27,572 nt of DNA from a virus: the IMG/VR virus record IMGVR_UViG_3300018048_000047, positions 1 to 27,572 of that record; one strand, 5' to 3'. Position 1 is the stretch's first letter. Each line of letters begins with the position of its first letter. The position numbers and the translations under genes are program-made. Under the pieces are notes generated by a model. That model was not told the origin of the DNA and did no database searches. It saw only the letters and a list, made by a program, of their open reading frames with translations. This document shows positions 1,318 through 26,123 of this stretch, one piece after another.

Positions 1318-1539
1318 ATGGATCTAAAATCAGATAAAGCTAAGTCGCTTACTAAAGATCAAGTATTTAAAGAGATAAAAGATTATCTAACAGAACAGAT
1401 TGAGTTGTCAAGACGTAAATGTGTAGATGAAGATAATTTCTCTTTTCCTGCATGGTCTGAACATCAAGCATATCAACTTGGCTTTCAAAAGGCTTTTTCT
1501 AAACTATATAATCTTATTCCTGACCAAGGAGAAAAATAA
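1318..1539 (+). CDS. Hypothetical 73-aa protein ahead of the scaffold gene
   Basis: The protein is small, charged and mostly helical in appearance (MDLKSDKAKSLTKDQVFKEI at the start, FPAWSEHQAYQLGFQKAFSK near the end). I do not recognise the family. No Shine-Dalgarno sequence precedes the ATG; a promoter -10 box ends only seven bases upstream, so translation may be leaderless, or may depend on readthrough mRNA from the portal gene. Its stop overlaps the next start (TAATG at 1537-1541), which implies translational coupling to the scaffold-like gene. A role in head assembly is possible from position only. Confidence 0.7.
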   Translation: MDLKSDKAKSLTKDQVFKEIKDYLTEQIELSRRKCVDEDNFSFPAWSEHQAYQLGFQKAFSKLYNLIPDQGEK

Positions 1540-2261
1540 TGGCTGAAGATAATAATACACAAGAACAACAACAAGAACAAGTTTCCGAGTCGACTACCCA
1601 AGAGACTCAGCAAGCAGATACTTCTACTCCCAAGTTTGAAATTCCGACAGAAGCTCAAGACTTTGTAGGAGAAGGTAAAAAGTACAAATCTGCAGAAGAT
1701 GCGTTAAGATCAGTTCCTCATGCACAAGAGCATATCAAAACCCTAGAGGATGAGATGGCTCAGTTGAAGGAAGAACTTACAAAACGTAAAACTGCAGCAG
1801 AACTACTCGATGAAATGAAGTCTGGCATTCAACCAACAGAGGCTACCCCTCAAGGTGTTGAATTTGATCAAGATAGCTTAATGCAGTTAGTTAATCAAAC
1901 TATTGAGCAAAAAGAACAACAATCTAAAGCAAAGCAAAATGCAGACACAGTAGCTTCTAAGTTTACTGAGCAGTATGGAGCTGAAGCTGAAGTTGCTTAT
2001 AATAAGATTGCTCAAGAAGCAGGTCTAACTGTACAACAACTTAATAACTTAGCTGCAACATCTCCTAATGTTGTAATGAAGCTTGCAGGCTTTGATACTA
2101 AATCTACACCAGTAGGTAAAACATCAAGCTCTGTTAATACACAAGCTTTAAACAACACAGCGAAACCACAAATGTCTGCTAGAGTACCGAGAGGTGCTTC
2201 TACTAAAGACATGTTAGCTGCTTGGAATAATGCAGGTGAGAAAGTTAAATCTCAATTATAA
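1539..2261 (+). CDS. Capsid scaffold-like protein
   Basis: The 240-residue protein has an extremely Gln/Glu/Thr-rich, probably disordered N-terminus (residues 1-35). A predicted helical or coiled-coil segment follows at about residues 60-90 (EHIKTLEDEMAQLKEELTKR), and the C-terminus is basic. This composition and its place immediately before the major capsid gene are typical of phage scaffolding proteins, which template procapsid assembly and then leave. The family is poorly conserved in sequence, so the call rests on composition and synteny. Its start overlaps the preceding stop (TAATG). Confidence 0.75.
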   Translation: MAEDNNTQEQQQEQVSESTTQETQQADTSTPKFEIPTEAQDFVGEGKKYKSAEDALRSVPHAQEHIKTLEDEMAQLKEELTKRKTAAELLDEMKSGIQPTEATPQGVEFDQDSLMQLVNQTIEQKEQQSKAKQNADTVASKFTEQYGAEAEVAYNKIAQEAGLTVQQLNNLAATSPNVVMKLAGFDTKSTPVGKTSSSVNTQALNNTAKPQMSARVPRGASTKDMLAAWNNAGEKVKSQL

Positions 2262-2273
2262 TAAGGAAATATT

Positions 2274-3257
2274 ATGTCACAATTAACTAGCAATACTACA
2301 GCTTTTATTGAAGCTCAACAGTATTCACAGTTTATTCTTGAGAACTTACACGACTATCTATTGCCAGAAGGTATGTGGAGAGACGTAACTGACTTCGGTT
2401 CAGGTACAACTCTTAACATCAAGACAGTAGGTACTGTAACTCTTCAAGATGCTGCTGAGGATACTCCTCTTAACTTCTCTCCTATTGACACAGGTAACTT
2501 AACACTTGCTATTACTGATTATATCGGTGATGCTTGGAAAGTTTCTGATGACCTTCGTGAAGATGGTTCTCAAGTAGACACACTCATGGCTATGCGTGCT
2601 ATGGAATCTACTCGTGCTTTAGGTGAAAACCATGAAACTAAGTTTTTAGCAGCTACTAACTCTGCTCAAACAGGTGCAGATGCTAACTTAGTAAATGGTC
2701 GTCCACATCGTTGGGTTGCAGGTGGTGCAGGTGCTACTACTCGTAACATGACATTAGATGACATCATCGCTATGAAATTAGCATTTGATAAAGCTAACGT
2801 TCCTTCAGGTGGTCGTATCGCTATCGTTGACCCTGTTGTTGAAGCTACATTAAACAGCATTCAAAACTTAGTTAGCGTATCTAACAACCCAATGTTCGAA
2901 GGTATTGTAACAGAAGGTTTTGCTCGTGACCATAAGTTTGTAAGAAACATCTTTGGTTTCGACATCTACACTTCTAACTTCTTACCATCACTAACAGCTA
3001 CAGAAGCTATCAATGGTGCTGCTTATGGCTTAGCTAATGATACTGCTGAAGTTGGTGACAAGGCTAACGTATTCATGTGTGTTGCTGATGATTCATGCAA
3101 ACCAGTTATGCACGCTTGGAGACGAGCTCCTCAAACAGAAGGTTGGAGAGATCAAGAAGAAAGAGCTGACAAGTATCAAGTTACTTCTCGCTTTGGTTTC
3201 GGTGCTCAACGTGTAGATACACTTGGTGTTATTTTAACTGACGAAGCTACATATTAA
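2274..3257 (+). CDS. Major capsid protein
   Basis: The 327-residue protein starts MSQLTSNTTAFIEAQQYSQF and includes FGSGTTLNIKTVGTVTLQD, a pattern I associate with major capsid proteins of marine podoviruses. It is expected to adopt the HK97 fold and form the icosahedral shell. The start is preceded by AAGGA at good spacing. The gene has more C-ending codons (AAC, GAC, TTC) than its neighbours, in line with high expression. It sits between scaffold and a small capsid-associated protein. The N-terminal 17 residues recur in the 42-aa protein at 5141-5269. Confidence 0.88.
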   Translation: MSQLTSNTTAFIEAQQYSQFILENLHDYLLPEGMWRDVTDFGSGTTLNIKTVGTVTLQDAAEDTPLNFSPIDTGNLTLAITDYIGDAWKVSDDLREDGSQVDTLMAMRAMESTRALGENHETKFLAATNSAQTGADANLVNGRPHRWVAGGAGATTRNMTLDDIIAMKLAFDKANVPSGGRIAIVDPVVEATLNSIQNLVSVSNNPMFEGIVTEGFARDHKFVRNIFGFDIYTSNFLPSLTATEAINGAAYGLANDTAEVGDKANVFMCVADDSCKPVMHAWRRAPQTEGWRDQEERADKYQVTSRFGFGAQRVDTLGVILTDEATY

Positions 3258-4364: not shown

Positions 4365-5141
4365 ATGGCTAAAATGACACTACTTGAAATAGTACAAGAC
4401 ATCATGTCAGACATGGATTCTGATGAGATTAATAGTATTAATGATACAGTTGAAGCTCTTCAAGTAGCACAGATTATTAAATCAACTTACTATAATATTA
4501 TAGATGGTAAAGACTTTCCTTTTCTTTATGAATTATTTCAATTAGAATCTAGTGGAACTGCTTCTAGACCTACTCACATGAGTCTTCCAGAAACTATTAT
4601 TGATTTAAAAACTATAAGTTATAATTGTAGAAAATCAACAGATACAAAAGACAAGTACAAAGAGATTCTTTATAAAACACCTGAAGACTTTCTTTATATC
4701 TTAAATCAAAGAAATAGTTCAGAGTCTAATGTTACTACTGTAACCGACACTACAGGTATTTCATTACTTATTTACAATGATAAAGCTCCCCAATACTTTA
4801 CTTCATTTGATGATGATAATCTTGTATTTGATTCTTATGATAATATTGTAGACTCTACTTTGGTTAAAGCAAAGACTCAATGTCATGGTAAACGTTCAGT
4901 AGCTTTTACATTATCTGACACTTTTACACCTGACTTACCAGTGCAAATGTTTACATACTTACTTGCTGAAGCTAAGTCAACTGCTTTTGTAACATTAAAG
5001 CAGATGGCTAATCCTAAAGCTGAACAAGTGTCTACTTCTCAAAGACGTAGAATGGCACAAGAAGCTTGGAAACTTAAAAAGGGTATTACATATCCAAACT
5101 ATGGTAGAAGAGCAGGAATAAAAGGAAAACCTAACTACTAA
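4365..5141 (+). CDS. Head-tail adaptor / tail tube protein A-like
   Basis: The 258-residue protein starts MAKMTLLEIVQDIMSDMDSD and continues with INDTVEALQVAQIIKSTYYN. This N-terminal helical signature matches the tail tubular protein A / gp4-like connector family of podoviruses. That family forms a ring between the portal and the tail nozzle. The C-terminus is strongly basic (RRRMAQEAWKLKKGITYPNY). Synteny (after capsid, before tail tube B) agrees. The stop overlaps the next start as TAATG at 5139-5143. Confidence 0.75.
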   Translation: MAKMTLLEIVQDIMSDMDSDEINSINDTVEALQVAQIIKSTYYNIIDGKDFPFLYELFQLESSGTASRPTHMSLPETIIDLKTISYNCRKSTDTKDKYKEILYKTPEDFLYILNQRNSSESNVTTVTDTTGISLLIYNDKAPQYFTSFDDDNLVFDSYDNIVDSTLVKAKTQCHGKRSVAFTLSDTFTPDLPVQMFTYLLAEAKSTAFVTLKQMANPKAEQVSTSQRRRMAQEAWKLKKGITYPNYGRRAGIKGKPNY

Positions 5142-5269
5142 TGAGCCAACTAACATCAAACACACAAGCCTTTGTACATTCACAACAGTATGGAATGGTG
5201 AAGAAACCTGGAGTGAAAGTTACAAATCCGTTTAAACAATTTCAAATTAAGTCAACAAAGAGGAAATAA
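5141..5269 (+). CDS. 42-aa protein with a copy of the major capsid N-terminus
   Basis: The ATG overlaps the preceding stop (TAATG) and the reading frame runs 42 codons to TAA at 5267-5269. Residues 1-17 (MSQLTSNTQAFVHSQQY) match residues 1-17 of the major capsid protein at 13 of 17 positions. Most of the shared residues in the first ten positions use different synonymous codons, so this is not a recent DNA copy. The rest is basic (GMVKKPGVKV, ending KSTKRK). The Shine-Dalgarno sequence for the next gene lies in its last codons. A function in head assembly, such as binding what the capsid arm binds, is my inference; no family is recognised. Confidence 0.7.
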   Translation: MSQLTSNTQAFVHSQQYGMVKKPGVKVTNPFKQFQIKSTKRK

Positions 5270-5271
5270 AT

Positions 5272-5712
5272 ATGGCAGAAGACAAGAAAAGTAAACAATT
5301 AAAGAGATTTAGTCCTTCTAAAAGAAATACAAATAAAAAGAAGATAGATGAATATCTTACTAAAAGACAGGCTGATACTAAACTTCCTAGTCAAGTATAT
5401 TCACCTGTTGATACAACGGGTCGCCCTGATTACACAGAAACAACTACTCGTAAAAATGTAAGAGTATCTCCTTCAGTTAAACCTAATGAAGACATGAGCA
5501 ATAGAGCTACAACTTATACTGATAAATATCCTAAGTATGAAACTTCTTCTTCTAGTTCTAGTATGGAAAATACTTCTTCTATGCCTACAGAATCTAATAA
5601 AGAAACAGCTACAGGTACACTTTCTGCTAAAACAGAAACTACATCTAGTGATCGTATGTCATGGGCTAGAGAAGCAGAGAAAAAAGCTCGTAAAATGATG
5701 GGAGGTCGCTAA
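5272..5712 (+). CDS. Hypothetical 146-aa Ser/Thr/Lys-rich protein
   Basis: This low-complexity hydrophilic protein starts MAEDKKSKQLKRFSPSKRNT, has a serine run in the middle (ETSSSSSSMENTSS), and ends in a basic helix (REAEKKARKMMGGR). It looks largely disordered. A good ribosome binding site (AGAGGAAA) is placed inside the preceding small gene. The stop overlaps the next ATG (TAATG). It lies in the tail gene cluster, so it may be a virion or assembly protein, but I do not recognise it. Confidence 0.75.
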   Translation: MAEDKKSKQLKRFSPSKRNTNKKKIDEYLTKRQADTKLPSQVYSPVDTTGRPDYTETTTRKNVRVSPSVKPNEDMSNRATTYTDKYPKYETSSSSSSMENTSSMPTESNKETATGTLSAKTETTSSDRMSWAREAEKKARKMMGGR

Positions 5713-21688: not shown

Positions 21689-22206
21689 TATAATGGAATA
21701 TCGTCTTCCATATCTGCAACTGAATTAACAGACTTGTTATCCATTACATAGTTCTCAAACTCTTTAGCCATAGCTAAAATGTCTGCGACAGAAGGTTGTT
21801 TACCTTCAGCAGTCAAAGCTGAGATAGAAGAAGAGATAGATGACTGTCTTACGATCATAACTTGACGTTGTGCTCGTTCTTCTTTAGTTTCATAGTTACT
21901 ACCAGTGACTCGTGTAGTTGGTTTAGCATTACTTGTAGTGCTTGTAGCTTGTGCTATTGCATCAGCTCCAATACTAATCCACTGCCAATAGCCATTGTCA
22001 TCTTTCTGAGTATTGACATCTACTGTGTCACCTTTTTGCCATTCTTTAGCCTGTTTAAACACATCAGGATTACTGAATGACATTAGCTTTTTAGATTGTA
22101 CTTGACCACTATCATTCTTATATGTTACTTCCATTGACTGATATGATCTACCATTCTTAGTTGAATGAGTATTAGGTTGTCCTACATCAATTACTGTGAT
22201 TTGCAT
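21688..22206 (-). CDS. Single-stranded DNA-binding protein
   Basis: The 172-residue protein has an N-terminal OB-like beta domain (ITVIDVGQPNTHSTKNGRSY; then KGDTVDVNTQKDDNGYWQWI). A flexible Ser/Thr-rich linker and a helical part follow. The tail ends acidic, DMEDDIPL, the typical SSB tip that recruits replication partners. The gene lies directly after the polymerase C-terminal gene, overlapping it by 20 bases, and before the exonuclease. Confidence 0.8.
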   Translation of the reverse strand: MQITVIDVGQPNTHSTKNGRSYQSMEVTYKNDSGQVQSKKLMSFSNPDVFKQAKEWQKGDTVDVNTQKDDNGYWQWISIGADAIAQATSTTSNAKPTTRVTGSNYETKEERAQRQVMIVRQSSISSSISALTAEGKQPSVADILAMAKEFENYVMDNKSVNSVADMEDDIPL

Positions 22207-22912
22207 TTATAATCTCCATATCACCCCATGTTTGTCCAACTTGACATTCGACTCGCATAGGTAAGTTAAAATCTACTCCAAATAACTTACTAAAGTTATC
22301 AGGAACATCTTCAAAACATTTATCAACTATGTTGACCAATGTAACATTATCCCACACTTTTGGATCAAAGTCAAGGATAATGGAATCGTGAACAGTATTC
22401 ACCATCTTCACTCCATCACGACCTTTAAGACGATTTCTCAATGATACTCGAGCTATCGCCATTAAATCTGCACCGAGTCCTTGAACTGGATAATTTAATA
22501 TCTTTGTTCGAGGATACTTCATCTTACCATACTTAATCTCAGGCTCATAAAAATAAGTACGTCCTGTAGGCATGATAAGTTTATGATCTCTTTTAGCTTT
22601 AAAGAATATCTCTTCGTGCCACTGATATAAGTTTTTATATTTATTATAGAATTCTTTAATGATATTTTCCCAGAACTCTTCTTTACCTACATCTTTAAAG
22701 TTAGGATCATTAGCATAAGACCAAGCACTGCCTCCATAGATTAATCTAAATACAAAAGTCTTAGCAATCAATCTACTTGGTAGTCCAAATCTTTTCTGAT
22801 TATCAGAGTGCATGTCTGTGCCTTTCCATATCTCATCAATCGCTACTTGATCTTGAGACAAATAACTAGCACCTACCCACTCTAGTTGTTTTGCATCTGC
22901 TTGTAATAACAT
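22187..22912 (-). CDS. polA: DNA polymerase family A, C-terminal half (palm and fingers)
   Basis: This 241-residue gene starts MLLQADAKQLEW, that is, two residues before motif A, whose catalytic Asp is D6. Motif B (O-helix) is KTFVFRLIYGG at K51-G61, with Phe55 at the position of E. coli Phe762 / T7 Tyr526. Motif C is TVHDSIILDF with H175/D176. It has no exonuclease or thumb, so it must work with the product of the gene at 23354-24511. Its ATG overlaps the stop of the 90-aa gene (TAATG) and AAGAGG is the ribosome binding site. Confidence 0.9.
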   Translation of the reverse strand: MLLQADAKQLEWVGASYLSQDQVAIDEIWKGTDMHSDNQKRFGLPSRLIAKTFVFRLIYGGSAWSYANDPNFKDVGKEEFWENIIKEFYNKYKNLYQWHEEIFFKAKRDHKLIMPTGRTYFYEPEIKYGKMKYPRTKILNYPVQGLGADLMAIARVSLRNRLKGRDGVKMVNTVHDSIILDFDPKVWDNVTLVNIVDKCFEDVPDNFSKLFGVDFNLPMRVECQVGQTWGDMEIINANHSN

Positions 22913-23184: not shown

Positions 23185-23357
23185 TTAACAATCTGCTCAG
23201 TAGAGTAGTCATTAAGATTTTCCATAACTATCTCAACACCTATCTCTTGAATGATTGTGTTTATATCATTAACTGTATGCACTACATAAGCTTCTTCCTG
23301 ATCTGATTGAAGTTGCATACCTTCATCATAATCAGGTGTGTAGTTGTCACTGTTCAT
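23163..23357 (-). CDS. 64-aa protein inserted between the two DNA polymerase genes
   Basis: The acidic N-terminus (MNSDNYTPDYDEGMQLQSDQ) is followed by a helical domain VVHTVNDINTIIQEIGVEIV and ends VKWLAKHY. Small proteins with a VHTVNDI-type segment seem common in marine podoviruses, but I cannot name a function. Its ATG overlaps the stop of the polymerase N-terminal gene (ATGA), and its ribosome binding site AAGGAGG is formed by that gene's last codons. It is related to the 90-aa protein that follows. Confidence 0.7.
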   Translation of the reverse strand: MNSDNYTPDYDEGMQLQSDQEEAYVVHTVNDINTIIQEIGVEIVMENLNDYSTEQIVKWLAKHY

Positions 23358-24511
23358 ATTGCCTCCTTATATCGTGATAATAATAGTCCTTTGATTTCAC
23401 CATCAAAGTTCTGTAAATTAGGTTTACTACTTGATAGTCTACCTGTCCTTGCCACACATTGGTTAAGTTGTCCATAGATATGACCTCTTTCCCAATTCTG
23501 TTCTGTAATCAAATTAACTAAACCTTTATAGTATGCTGTCATTCTCTTCTCTAAAACGGCTCTTGTCAATATAATCTTAATAACTTCTGATGCTTTCTTT
23601 GATCCTGCTAAACTACGAAGTGTTTGTTCATCAGTAGAGTATAAACCTTCTTTCTCTAACTCTGACCCTTTTAAAGGTTTTACAAGTCTAGGAAACTCTA
23701 TTTCATGGGCTTCCCATTTGAATCTTGGTTGTCCTTCTTTCTCTCCCGACTTATAAACCCCATTAGGCAGTCTCCTCCTAAATGTAACATTACCACCATA
23801 TAAGAAAGCACTAAGGTGATCAACGCTATTGGGATTGAAATCATCACACTTATGTATGTCATACAACCTTTTATCAAGCTTTGCAATTTGTTCCTCCATT
23901 TCATGTCCTAAAATCTCTGACTTATCCTGATCGTATAAGACACCATTAAACTCCATTTCCTCAAGAACAAGTAAGTCCTGATTGTGTAAGCTAATGAGTC
24001 TTTTAAGATGTGGATTTACTTCAAGATCTTCTAACTGTTTTAAATATACTTGCTCTGTAAGATCTAAATCTTTCTGCAAATACTCCTCTAGAATATCACG
24101 AGGAATCTCATTAGTATCAATGCCGTTCTTCCAATATTCTTCTTTAACTACATCTAGTTTAGTCTCTAGTCCATAGTGTTCACAAACTTGATTTAAGCTA
24201 GGATATGGTTTAGATTGTCCCATTAGGATAAAGTGTACCAACTGACAATCCCATATTCTTTTATCCTGAAAGTCTATACCATACTTACGAACCCAATGTA
24301 GATCAAACTTAATATTAAATCCTACAAGCATATCGTGATTGTTGATGACCGACTGAACACGATCAAGGTCATCTCGATATGGATGTTCTGTATACTCGAT
24401 GTCATAGATACCATTGTCTTTGAGACCTATGAGACAGAGCTTGTTTAAACGACTGAAAGGATTACCTTTATTCTGAATCGTTGTTTCTACGTCTAGCGTT
24501 AGATGTTTCAT
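23354..24511 (-). CDS. polA: DNA polymerase family A, N-terminal half (exonuclease and thumb)
   Basis: The 385-residue protein has a 3'-5' proofreading exonuclease domain with all three motifs. Exo I is LTLDVET (D7, E9), Exo II is VGFNIKFDLHWV (D70) and Exo III is YLQKD (Y144, D148). The thumb and start of the palm follow, with the conserved CVARTGRLSSSKPNLQNFDG close to the end. The gene stops after SRYKEAI, exactly where a normal polymerase would run into motif A. Together with the C-terminal gene it gives about 626 residues, with nothing evidently missing. The last codons contain AAGGAGG for the next gene. Confidence 0.9.
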   Translation of the reverse strand: MKHLTLDVETTIQNKGNPFSRLNKLCLIGLKDNGIYDIEYTEHPYRDDLDRVQSVINNHDMLVGFNIKFDLHWVRKYGIDFQDKRIWDCQLVHFILMGQSKPYPSLNQVCEHYGLETKLDVVKEEYWKNGIDTNEIPRDILEEYLQKDLDLTEQVYLKQLEDLEVNPHLKRLISLHNQDLLVLEEMEFNGVLYDQDKSEILGHEMEEQIAKLDKRLYDIHKCDDFNPNSVDHLSAFLYGGNVTFRRRLPNGVYKSGEKEGQPRFKWEAHEIEFPRLVKPLKGSELEKEGLYSTDEQTLRSLAGSKKASEVIKIILTRAVLEKRMTAYYKGLVNLITEQNWERGHIYGQLNQCVARTGRLSSSKPNLQNFDGEIKGLLLSRYKEAI

Positions 24512-24895: not shown

Positions 24896-26123
24896 AACGA
24901 GCAACCTCAGGTCTGATAAGAACCTGTGTAGAACCATGTCTTAACTCAGGTAGAGTATCAACATCTCCTATCAGTTTGTTCTTACAAATGTTTAAGAAAC
25001 GAAGTCTTGATGTATTGTCTTGTTCTTTACCAATACCAAGAATCCAATCTGCCTCACCTTGCTTACCTGTTTTAGAACCATCTACCATGTCCATTGTAAG
25101 CCATAACTTACCCTCAGCCTCACCACTTGCTTGTGATACTGCAATCACTGGGGCATATCTCTTTGCTATTTCTCTTGCCCATTGATAGATCGCCTTGAGC
25201 TCCAAATCGTTACGATCAGCTTTAAAGCCTTTGATCTTATCGATCTGATCGAAAATAATCAAGGCAGGGGTAGATTCCTTGAGTATTGCATCGATCCTTG
25301 AAGCTCGAGACGAATCATCAAAATCGTAAATCTTAATTCGTCCTCCACCTAGAGAAATAAACTTCTCTTGATTGTGTTCTTTGTCATTGAAGAGTGGATC
25401 TAATTCTAATCCAAGCATAGCTTGAAAGCATCGTATAGCTACTTTCTTACCTTGTTCTTCGTTGTTGAACCAAATGATTTCACCCTCTGTTTGCTGAACC
25501 ATTTTAGTTACTTCACTAGCTAGGAAAGTTGTCTTACCTGTTTCTGGTCTTGCGAAGATAAAACCAAAGTCGCCTTTTCTGAGTGAACCTAGTGCTTGGT
25601 TTAGCCATTTCAATCTCCATCGTAATCCTGGTGTTTCTATCTGAGAGTCATAGAGTTCGTTAAGATCCATAAGAACCTCTTGTGATTCATCAGCCTCAAT
25701 CTGTGAGTGATCGAACTCGTCATAGATCTTGTGGAGTTCCTCGATGTCTGCCTTGCCATCCTCAACGTCAAGAGCGATACGAGCAATCTCACCTGAGAGG
25801 CATCTCTTACGATGCTCTTCGAGTAAGTCTATAACTGCTTCAGGGTTTGTGATTTCAATAGCGAAGATGTCTTCGATCAGAGAGGTGATCTCTTTTCGTT
25901 CCATTTCGTTTAGGAGGTAGTTAGAATTGTATGCTAATTCTAATTCAGATTTATTAATATTATTATTATTAATATATTTATTATAATAATTATTTATAAT
26001 AATAAATAATTTATATATATTAATATAATTAATTTTAATATAATTAATATTAACATATTTATAAAACTTTGTAAAGAGATTTCTATCTTCACAAAATAAC
26101 TTGATTATCTGCTTTTCAACCAT
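24882..26123 (-). CDS. Replicative DNA helicase (DnaB / T7 gp4 helicase type)
   Basis: This 413-residue RecA-fold hexameric helicase unwinds the phage DNA. Residues 1-100 are an N-terminal helical domain. Walker A is FARPETGKTTF (G196-K197-T198), followed by IIWFNNEEQGKK (the H1a acidic segment). Walker B is ALIIFDQIDK with D292, and then come AVSQASGEAE and the C-terminal motif DWILGIGKEQ. Unlike T7 gp4, primase and helicase are separate genes that overlap by 19 bases. Residues 24-59 are encoded almost only by A and T, giving an Ile/Asn/Tyr/Lys-only stretch. AGGGGA lies nine bases before the ATG. Confidence 0.88.
   Translation of the reverse strand: MVEKQIIKLFCEDRNLFTKFYKYVNINYIKINYINIYKLFIIINNYYNKYINNNNINKSELELAYNSNYLLNEMERKEITSLIEDIFAIEITNPEAVIDLLEEHRKRCLSGEIARIALDVEDGKADIEELHKIYDEFDHSQIEADESQEVLMDLNELYDSQIETPGLRWRLKWLNQALGSLRKGDFGFIFARPETGKTTFLASEVTKMVQQTEGEIIWFNNEEQGKKVAIRCFQAMLGLELDPLFNDKEHNQEKFISLGGGRIKIYDFDDSSRASRIDAILKESTPALIIFDQIDKIKGFKADRNDLELKAIYQWAREIAKRYAPVIAVSQASGEAEGKLWLTMDMVDGSKTGKQGEADWILGIGKEQDNTSRLRFLNICKNKLIGDVDTLPELRHGSTQVLIRPEVARYEDI
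25949..26053. other. 105-base pure A/T run inside the helicase gene, possible DNA unwinding element
   Basis: From 25949 to 26053 there is not one G or C, and only one C up to 26066. The run is in frame and free of stops on the minus strand. It encodes helicase residues 24-59, where related proteins keep a helical domain. It contains many TAATAT, TTATAA and ATTAAT blocks. Such a stretch melts easily and is a candidate for a replication origin, though relaxed codon drift is an alternative. Confidence 0.6.

Follow-up and report, generated by a model that had tools for sequence, protein, structure and literature searches.

A small gene behind the head-tail adaptor begins like the phage's own major capsid protein: candidate capsid N-arm mimics in two groups of aquatic podophages

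Why should a phage encode, among its head genes, a 42-amino-acid protein that opens like its own major capsid protein (MCP)? The question is raised by an IMG/VR virus record of 27,572 bases, the whole of which is referred to here as the window. The window MCP is 83.8% identical over 327 amino acids to that of MEP401, a Methylophilales phage infecting OM43 and assigned to the Zobellviridae in the accessible part of its description (PMC10580990). The gene order, portal-scaffold-MCP-adaptor-mimic-YTS gene-head closure gene, is likewise that of the MEP401-like group, and MCP homology and gene order together place the window phage there. The adaptor stop and the ATG of the small gene overlap as TAATG, with the common A at position 5141 (Table 1). 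Downstream of the small gene, an ORF at 5272-5712 encodes a 146-amino-acid low-complexity basic protein with a PTDT/PVDT-type motif common to relatives. Elsewhere in the window the DNA polymerase is split between ORFs 22187-22912 and 23354-24511, with small genes in between, an arrangement comparable to gp13/gp15 of MEP401 and assigned from gene position, not from a family search.

Table 1. Features of the head-gene region, in positions of the 27,572-base window
Feature	Position	Strand	Remark
Scaffold gene, candidate binding partner	1539..2261	+	
Scaffold island NTQAL (aa 200-204), weakly like MCP/mimic NTxAF	2136..2150	+	Lead only
MCP (HK97 fold, from predicted model), mimicked protein	2274..3257	+	
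MCP N-arm motif, T5-S18	2286..2327	+	Basis: 60 aligned MCPs
Head-tail adaptor gene	4365..5141	+	Stop overlaps mimic start
42-aa mimic gene (MCP N-arm motif and basic tail)	5141..5269	+	ATG overlaps adaptor stop
Mimic shared core, T5-Y17 (T-S-N-T-x-A-F-V-x-x-Q-Q-Y)	5153..5191	+	Basis: 55 distinct MCP/mimic pairs
Mimic polybasic tail	5192..5266	+	8 K/R and 0 D/E in 25 residues

The small protein reads MSQLTSNTQAFVHSQQYGMVKKPGVKVTNPFKQFQIKSTKRK, and the MCP begins with MSQLTSNTTAFIEAQQYSQFIL. As the preliminary description of this DNA had reported, 13 of the first 17 residues are identical, 7 of the 12 matching codons after the ATG differ, both serine pairs being switches between TCA and AGC, and everything after residue 17 is a basic tail. 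The five identical codons compare with 6.3 expected from the codon usage of the window. At least 12 identities in 16 residues would occur by chance with a probability of 5e-12 per ORF start, and over the 627 start codons in the window that open at least 25 amino acids, 3.4e-9 matches that good are expected. When ORF starts of the window were compared with the MCP start, the mimic had a BLOSUM score of 54 and the next best a score of 30. In the window and in the MEP401 genome, the motif is borne only by the MCP itself and by one small ORF. AlphaFold2 predicted no fold for the small protein, and a PHROG and Pfam profile scan of 28 members gave no family that two or more of them hit, the best single-member scores being E values of 0.067 (PHROGs) and 0.025 (Pfam).

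Related phages carry the same small gene. It lies directly after the adaptor in 104 of 111 distinct regions from the OM43-phage (MEP401-like) side and in 0 of 62 adaptor regions from other Zobellviridae genera. This count covers 173 distinct adaptor regions with at least 250 nucleotides after the stop, 34 loci having been dropped as too short; 100 positives passed the filter and four that failed it (L275, L286, L289, and L301) were recognized by eye, and the 69 negatives are the 62 from other genera plus seven near relatives. Absence of the gene or motif from close relatives, which the preliminary description had named as what would speak against it, was seen only in those seven ctOsX528-like and L308 near-relative regions (L084, which is ctOsX528, L308, L312, L313, L314, L320, and L349). 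On a 12-residue BLOSUM score, the best MCP-like ORF starts reached 11 to 26 in 71 other-genus loci (9 of the 80 such loci gave no readable MCP start), 35 in MEP401 and MEP402, and 41 in the window. On the adaptor tree the gene is present from near the base of the MEP401-like group, and early branches (L318, L301, L304/L362, and L035) carry a motif one residue shorter, [DN]T-SF[IVM]NKEKY(S). The offset is 0 in 59 of 66 distinct sequences, the gene opening with the base that also ends the adaptor stop codon. The proteins are 30 to 72 amino acids long across this group, and no cleavage is known. MEP401 gp37 and MEP402 gp39 are orthologs in the same position; they begin at TTG, read LTFTTANTLSFIHKEQYGKKKKK, are annotated only as hypothetical proteins, and are not mentioned in the accessible part of PMC10580990.

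Other small lysine-rich ORFs were observed in the same neighborhood. Two of the regions without a mimic, L312 and L349, have an unrelated one in the slot directly behind the adaptor, and such ORFs also stand beside the mimic. Further examples of these Lys-rich ORFs are MACKKKKKKK in L318 (3286-3318) and MATAKKATPKKKAPAKKKAALSK behind the adaptor in L206. Judging from these sequences, the slot behaves as though it selected polybasic peptides.

The preliminary description had supposed that the peptide was either kept by selection long after a duplication or reached by convergence. Selection and the lack of recent copying are borne out, and the origin may have been either duplication or convergence. 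The core T-x-N-T-x-A-F-[IV]-x3-Q-Y is constrained, with a pS of 0.63, a pN of 0.21, and a ratio of 0.34 (14 codons, 2145 pairs), and its synonymous sites are at background level. Since gene and motif are kept across relatives under such constraint, the peptide is not a recent copy. Recent duplication or gene conversion was also rejected on codon sharing at identical residues, which is 0.559 within and 0.571 between genomes and hence indicates no recent copying. In 55 distinct pairs, the mimic residue equals that of its own MCP at F and Y in all 55, at T8 in 53, at T5 and N7 in 48, and at A10 and Q16 in 47, and the residue preceding A10 is free in MCP and mimic alike. Among 60 aligned MCPs, N7, F11, E13, Q16, Y17, and S18 are invariant. 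The peptide is not an exact copy: the position of MCP Glu13 holds His, Asn, or Lys in 52 of 55 mimics and that of Ser18 holds Gly in 49 of 55. Drift is seen in some mimics (METWNTKSFVKGDVYG, MLSNQAKAFIHAQVYG) whose MCP is unchanged. Tails vary in length and sequence, and all are basic (8 to 21 K/R and 0 to 3 D/E in 60 tails). Coevolution of MCP and mimic is suggestive only: identity is 9.36 of 15 residues within a genome and 9.02 with other genomes, the within-genome value being reached by none of 2000 permutations that ignore kinship, and covariation on the tree at the residue preceding the TSNT block, scored as L or not L, comprises three independent pairs and is not significant.

A second case came from a control scan of other podophages that set every ORF start against the MCP start. 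In Pelagibacter phage HTVC010P, an ORF at 24896-25000, unannotated in NC_020481, reads MITKNFAQQYSRKTSMLSQQTGKKKKKKKYKKKK, and the MCP begins with MSSNITTAFVQQYSANVQMLSQQMGSLLRD; 11 of 17 residues are identical, and none of 120 shuffled MCP starts scores as high. Between the HTVC010P and window MCPs, BLASTP gave an E value of 0.38, which is not significant, with the best segment limited to the N terminus. Nine pelagiphage mimics were read, those of HTVC010P, HTVC034P, HTVC035P, Lederberg, Greip, HTVC204P, HTVC100P, HTVC203P, and Skadi-4. All are ORFs of 34 to 49 amino acids in which the motif, QY[SG]...L[SA]QQ-x-G or a close variant, is followed by a basic tail with 10 to 12 K/R and no D/E. 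A tblastn search matched HTVC024P at 84.6%; its matches in other Skadi isolates, at 51%, have weak E values. The gene is downstream of gp38 or peptidase M15, adjoining lysis genes and far from the head genes. No mimic was found in the pelagiphages HTVC028P, Baldr, and ct3Et533, nor in the gp38-bearing HTVC112P, HTVC202P, and HTVC109P, whose MCPs are not of the HTVC010P type, nor by the same scan in T7, VpV262, and MEP301; SIO1 was left out, as its MCP start was not found. In P-SSP7 the scan gave a score of 44 at an internal start, which we take to be the end of the integrase. A score of 44 by itself can therefore be chance, and the evidence for the pelagiphage case is the shuffle control together with the conservation seen in the nine sequences read. 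In annotations, the Greip mimic (MT375525, 31861-31977; our locus L379), 38 amino acids with an MCP-like start and poly-Lys, is called an "HNH endonuclease-like protein," and in HTVC204P and HTVC024P no gene is annotated where the match lies.

That a second phage group mimics its own MCP means that such mimicry can arise more than once. From the place of the gene, the tail, and the MCP-specific residues copied, we infer that the Zobellviridae and pelagiphage mimics arose independently; a remote common origin would still be compatible with the TTAF[IV]..QQYS-like stretch at the start of both MCPs. These two MCPs, which share that start with no detectable overall similarity, may exemplify a widespread N-arm motif.

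What the MCP start does in capsids bears on what its imitation might do. The window MCP is assigned the HK97 fold on the basis of a predicted model (pLDDT 70, with residues 1 to 28 under 50), for which Foldseek gave 9jwb at an E value of 3.4e-14 and VIA-align a Z of 18.7 and an rmsd of 5.6 over 277 aligned residues. In the accessible parts of the structural papers, the P22 N-arm contacts the procapsid scaffold as a helix and converts on maturation to an extended loop that reaches into the neighboring subunit (PMC9965877), an extended N-arm grips neighboring subunits in the mature P-SCSP1u head (PMC10575957), and the HK97 N-arm moves into the site vacated by the scaffold (PMC10275583). The preliminary description had suggested scaffold, portal, or an assembly factor as the partner of the peptide; by analogy with these solved capsids, the MCP groove that receives the N-arm would be at least as likely.

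We favor, with a confidence somewhat short of even, a reading in which the mimic docks in the MCP groove that normally takes up the N-arm and the mimic's tail binds packaged DNA. The first 17 or so residues would imitate the N-arm and dock at the P-domain/E-loop region of a neighboring MCP subunit, and the unstructured Lys/Arg-rich tail would contact DNA, either already packaged or on its way into the head. The protein, then presumably part of the virion, would fill empty N-arm sites, such as those around the portal vertex with its one missing penton, or alternatively would occupy a fraction of N-arm sites during expansion, and the DNA would be tethered to the inner shell. The simplest expectation is that a peptide with the sequence of the arm would bind the MCP where the arm does and that a tail nearly free of acidic residues would contact DNA. 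Docking is favored by core residues that equal those of the MCP while flanks and tail drift, and the combination of docking and DNA contact by a second phage group with the same design and a different MCP. It is weakened by the inexactness of the copy at Glu13 and Ser18, by the mimics that drift beside an unchanged MCP, by the nonsignificant covariation on the tree, by the missing fold of the small protein and the low pLDDT of the MCP N terminus, and by the pelagiphage gene adjoining lysis genes. A role at the portal vertex only is not needed, because in the pelagiphages the gene has no linkage to the adaptor.

The main rival is that the mimic binds the scaffold, which recognizes the MCP N-arm in procapsids, and so enters the head with the scaffold or limits scaffold-MCP contacts. 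We hold this to be unlikely. In the accessible parts of the sources, the coat N-arm of P22 (PMC9965877), and likewise that of 80alpha (PMC5644958), holds the scaffold C terminus, and an N-terminal targeting sequence brings T4 internal proteins into the scaffold core (PMC3012670); in the window's group, moreover, the C-terminal helix of the scaffold is conserved and basic. Mildly against it, the P22 contacts use acidic N-arm residues and the acidic Glu13 is the residue lost in most mimics; the shared part also stops at Tyr17, ahead of QFIL, a hydrophobic segment in the predicted helix. As a separate observation, the C-terminal scaffold linker, variable elsewhere, contains a conserved NT[EQ]A[LF] island that resembles the MCP N-arm motif. 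An alignment of 84 scaffolds from the window's group shows NTxA[FL] conserved, and 33 scaffolds of the MxQNR genera have a similar motif. In a scaffold-MCP profile control it came first among the pairs for MxQNR at width 5, was absent in the MQxT group, and ranked 15 of 322 MCP windows in the window's own group, and with this mixed result a three-way motif including the scaffold is kept as a lead and not used.

Quite unlikely, in our judgment, is an unpackaged intracellular regulator of assembly that masks MCP N-arm sites until capsid protein suffices, its tail binding cellular nucleic acid. SaPI CpmB, which copies the scaffold C terminus, is a precedent for competition by mimicry in the accessible part of PMC5644958, and the remoteness of the pelagiphage gene from the head genes would suit such a role; the start-stop coupling to the adaptor within the head operon of the window's group does not. 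More doubtful still is that the motif has an unrelated role in the MCP and in the small protein, such as recognition by a host factor or protease. A motif common to two proteins need not signal capsid contact, and MCPs as different as those of the window and HTVC010P share their start, but the mimics track group-specific MCP residues (TSNT in one group, LSQQ-x-G in the other), which better suits an MCP-dependent partner. A relic without function, left by duplication of the MCP 5' end, or else a product of chance, might be suggested by drifting members and by the ctOsX528-area lineages without a mimic, and is contradicted so strongly by the pN/pS ratio, the retention in 104 of 111 regions, the chance expectation of 3e-9, and the second occurrence that we give it almost no credence.

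The conserved mimic and the same design in unrelated SAR11 phages suggest, at the level of sequence, an undescribed capsid-docking and probably DNA-binding protein. More broadly and more tentatively, there may be an undescribed class of "capsid N-arm mimics," with at least two origins in aquatic podophages (OM43-type Zobellviridae and HTVC010P-type pelagiphages), in which an N-arm of the phage's own MCP type with a polylysine-like tail would fasten DNA to unfilled N-arm sites. In a literature search that reached few subscription journals, and is thus weak evidence of absence, no small phage protein sharing the MCP N terminus was found described; work on MEP401 and on lysine-rich proteins of HTVC010P yielded no such mimic, and the accessible part of the Skadi paper (PMC10504331) no mention of the gene. 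If the proposal is right, two ecologically important phage groups attach a basic protein to their own shell through a self-mimicking peptide, and tiny Lys-rich ORFs that annotators omit or misname are accounted for. A simple rule, a small ORF whose start resembles that of the phage's own MCP, would then find more, and a 17-residue peptide would make occupancy of unpaired arm sites and DNA tethering in podophage heads directly testable.

Among known systems, as the accessible parts of the sources present them, three invite comparison. T4 internal proteins, which associate with DNA in the head, likewise begin with a short sequence common to them (PMC3012670), but the T4 capsid-targeting sequence stands on several internal proteins, whereas the mimic motif is confined to the MCP and one small gene. 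SaPI1 CpmB is, like the mimic, small and imitates a peptide through which a phage assembly protein binds (PMC5644958); unlike the mimic, which copies the N terminus of the phage's own MCP, it is satellite encoded and copies the scaffold C terminus, and the resemblance of the mimic to scaffold is weak and fails part of the profile control. In adenovirus, the basic core protein VII and protein VI share a hexon pocket through N-terminal peptides (PMC8156859). Those peptides, unlike the mimics, are not copies of the N-arm of the capsid protein, and they are cleaved off, as the mimics are not known to be. The likeness to the proposed mimic lies in a basic core protein, matched here by the basic composition of the tail, that uses a short N-terminal peptide to enter a capsid pocket also used by another virion protein, and adenovirus thus indicates that such a division of labor exists.
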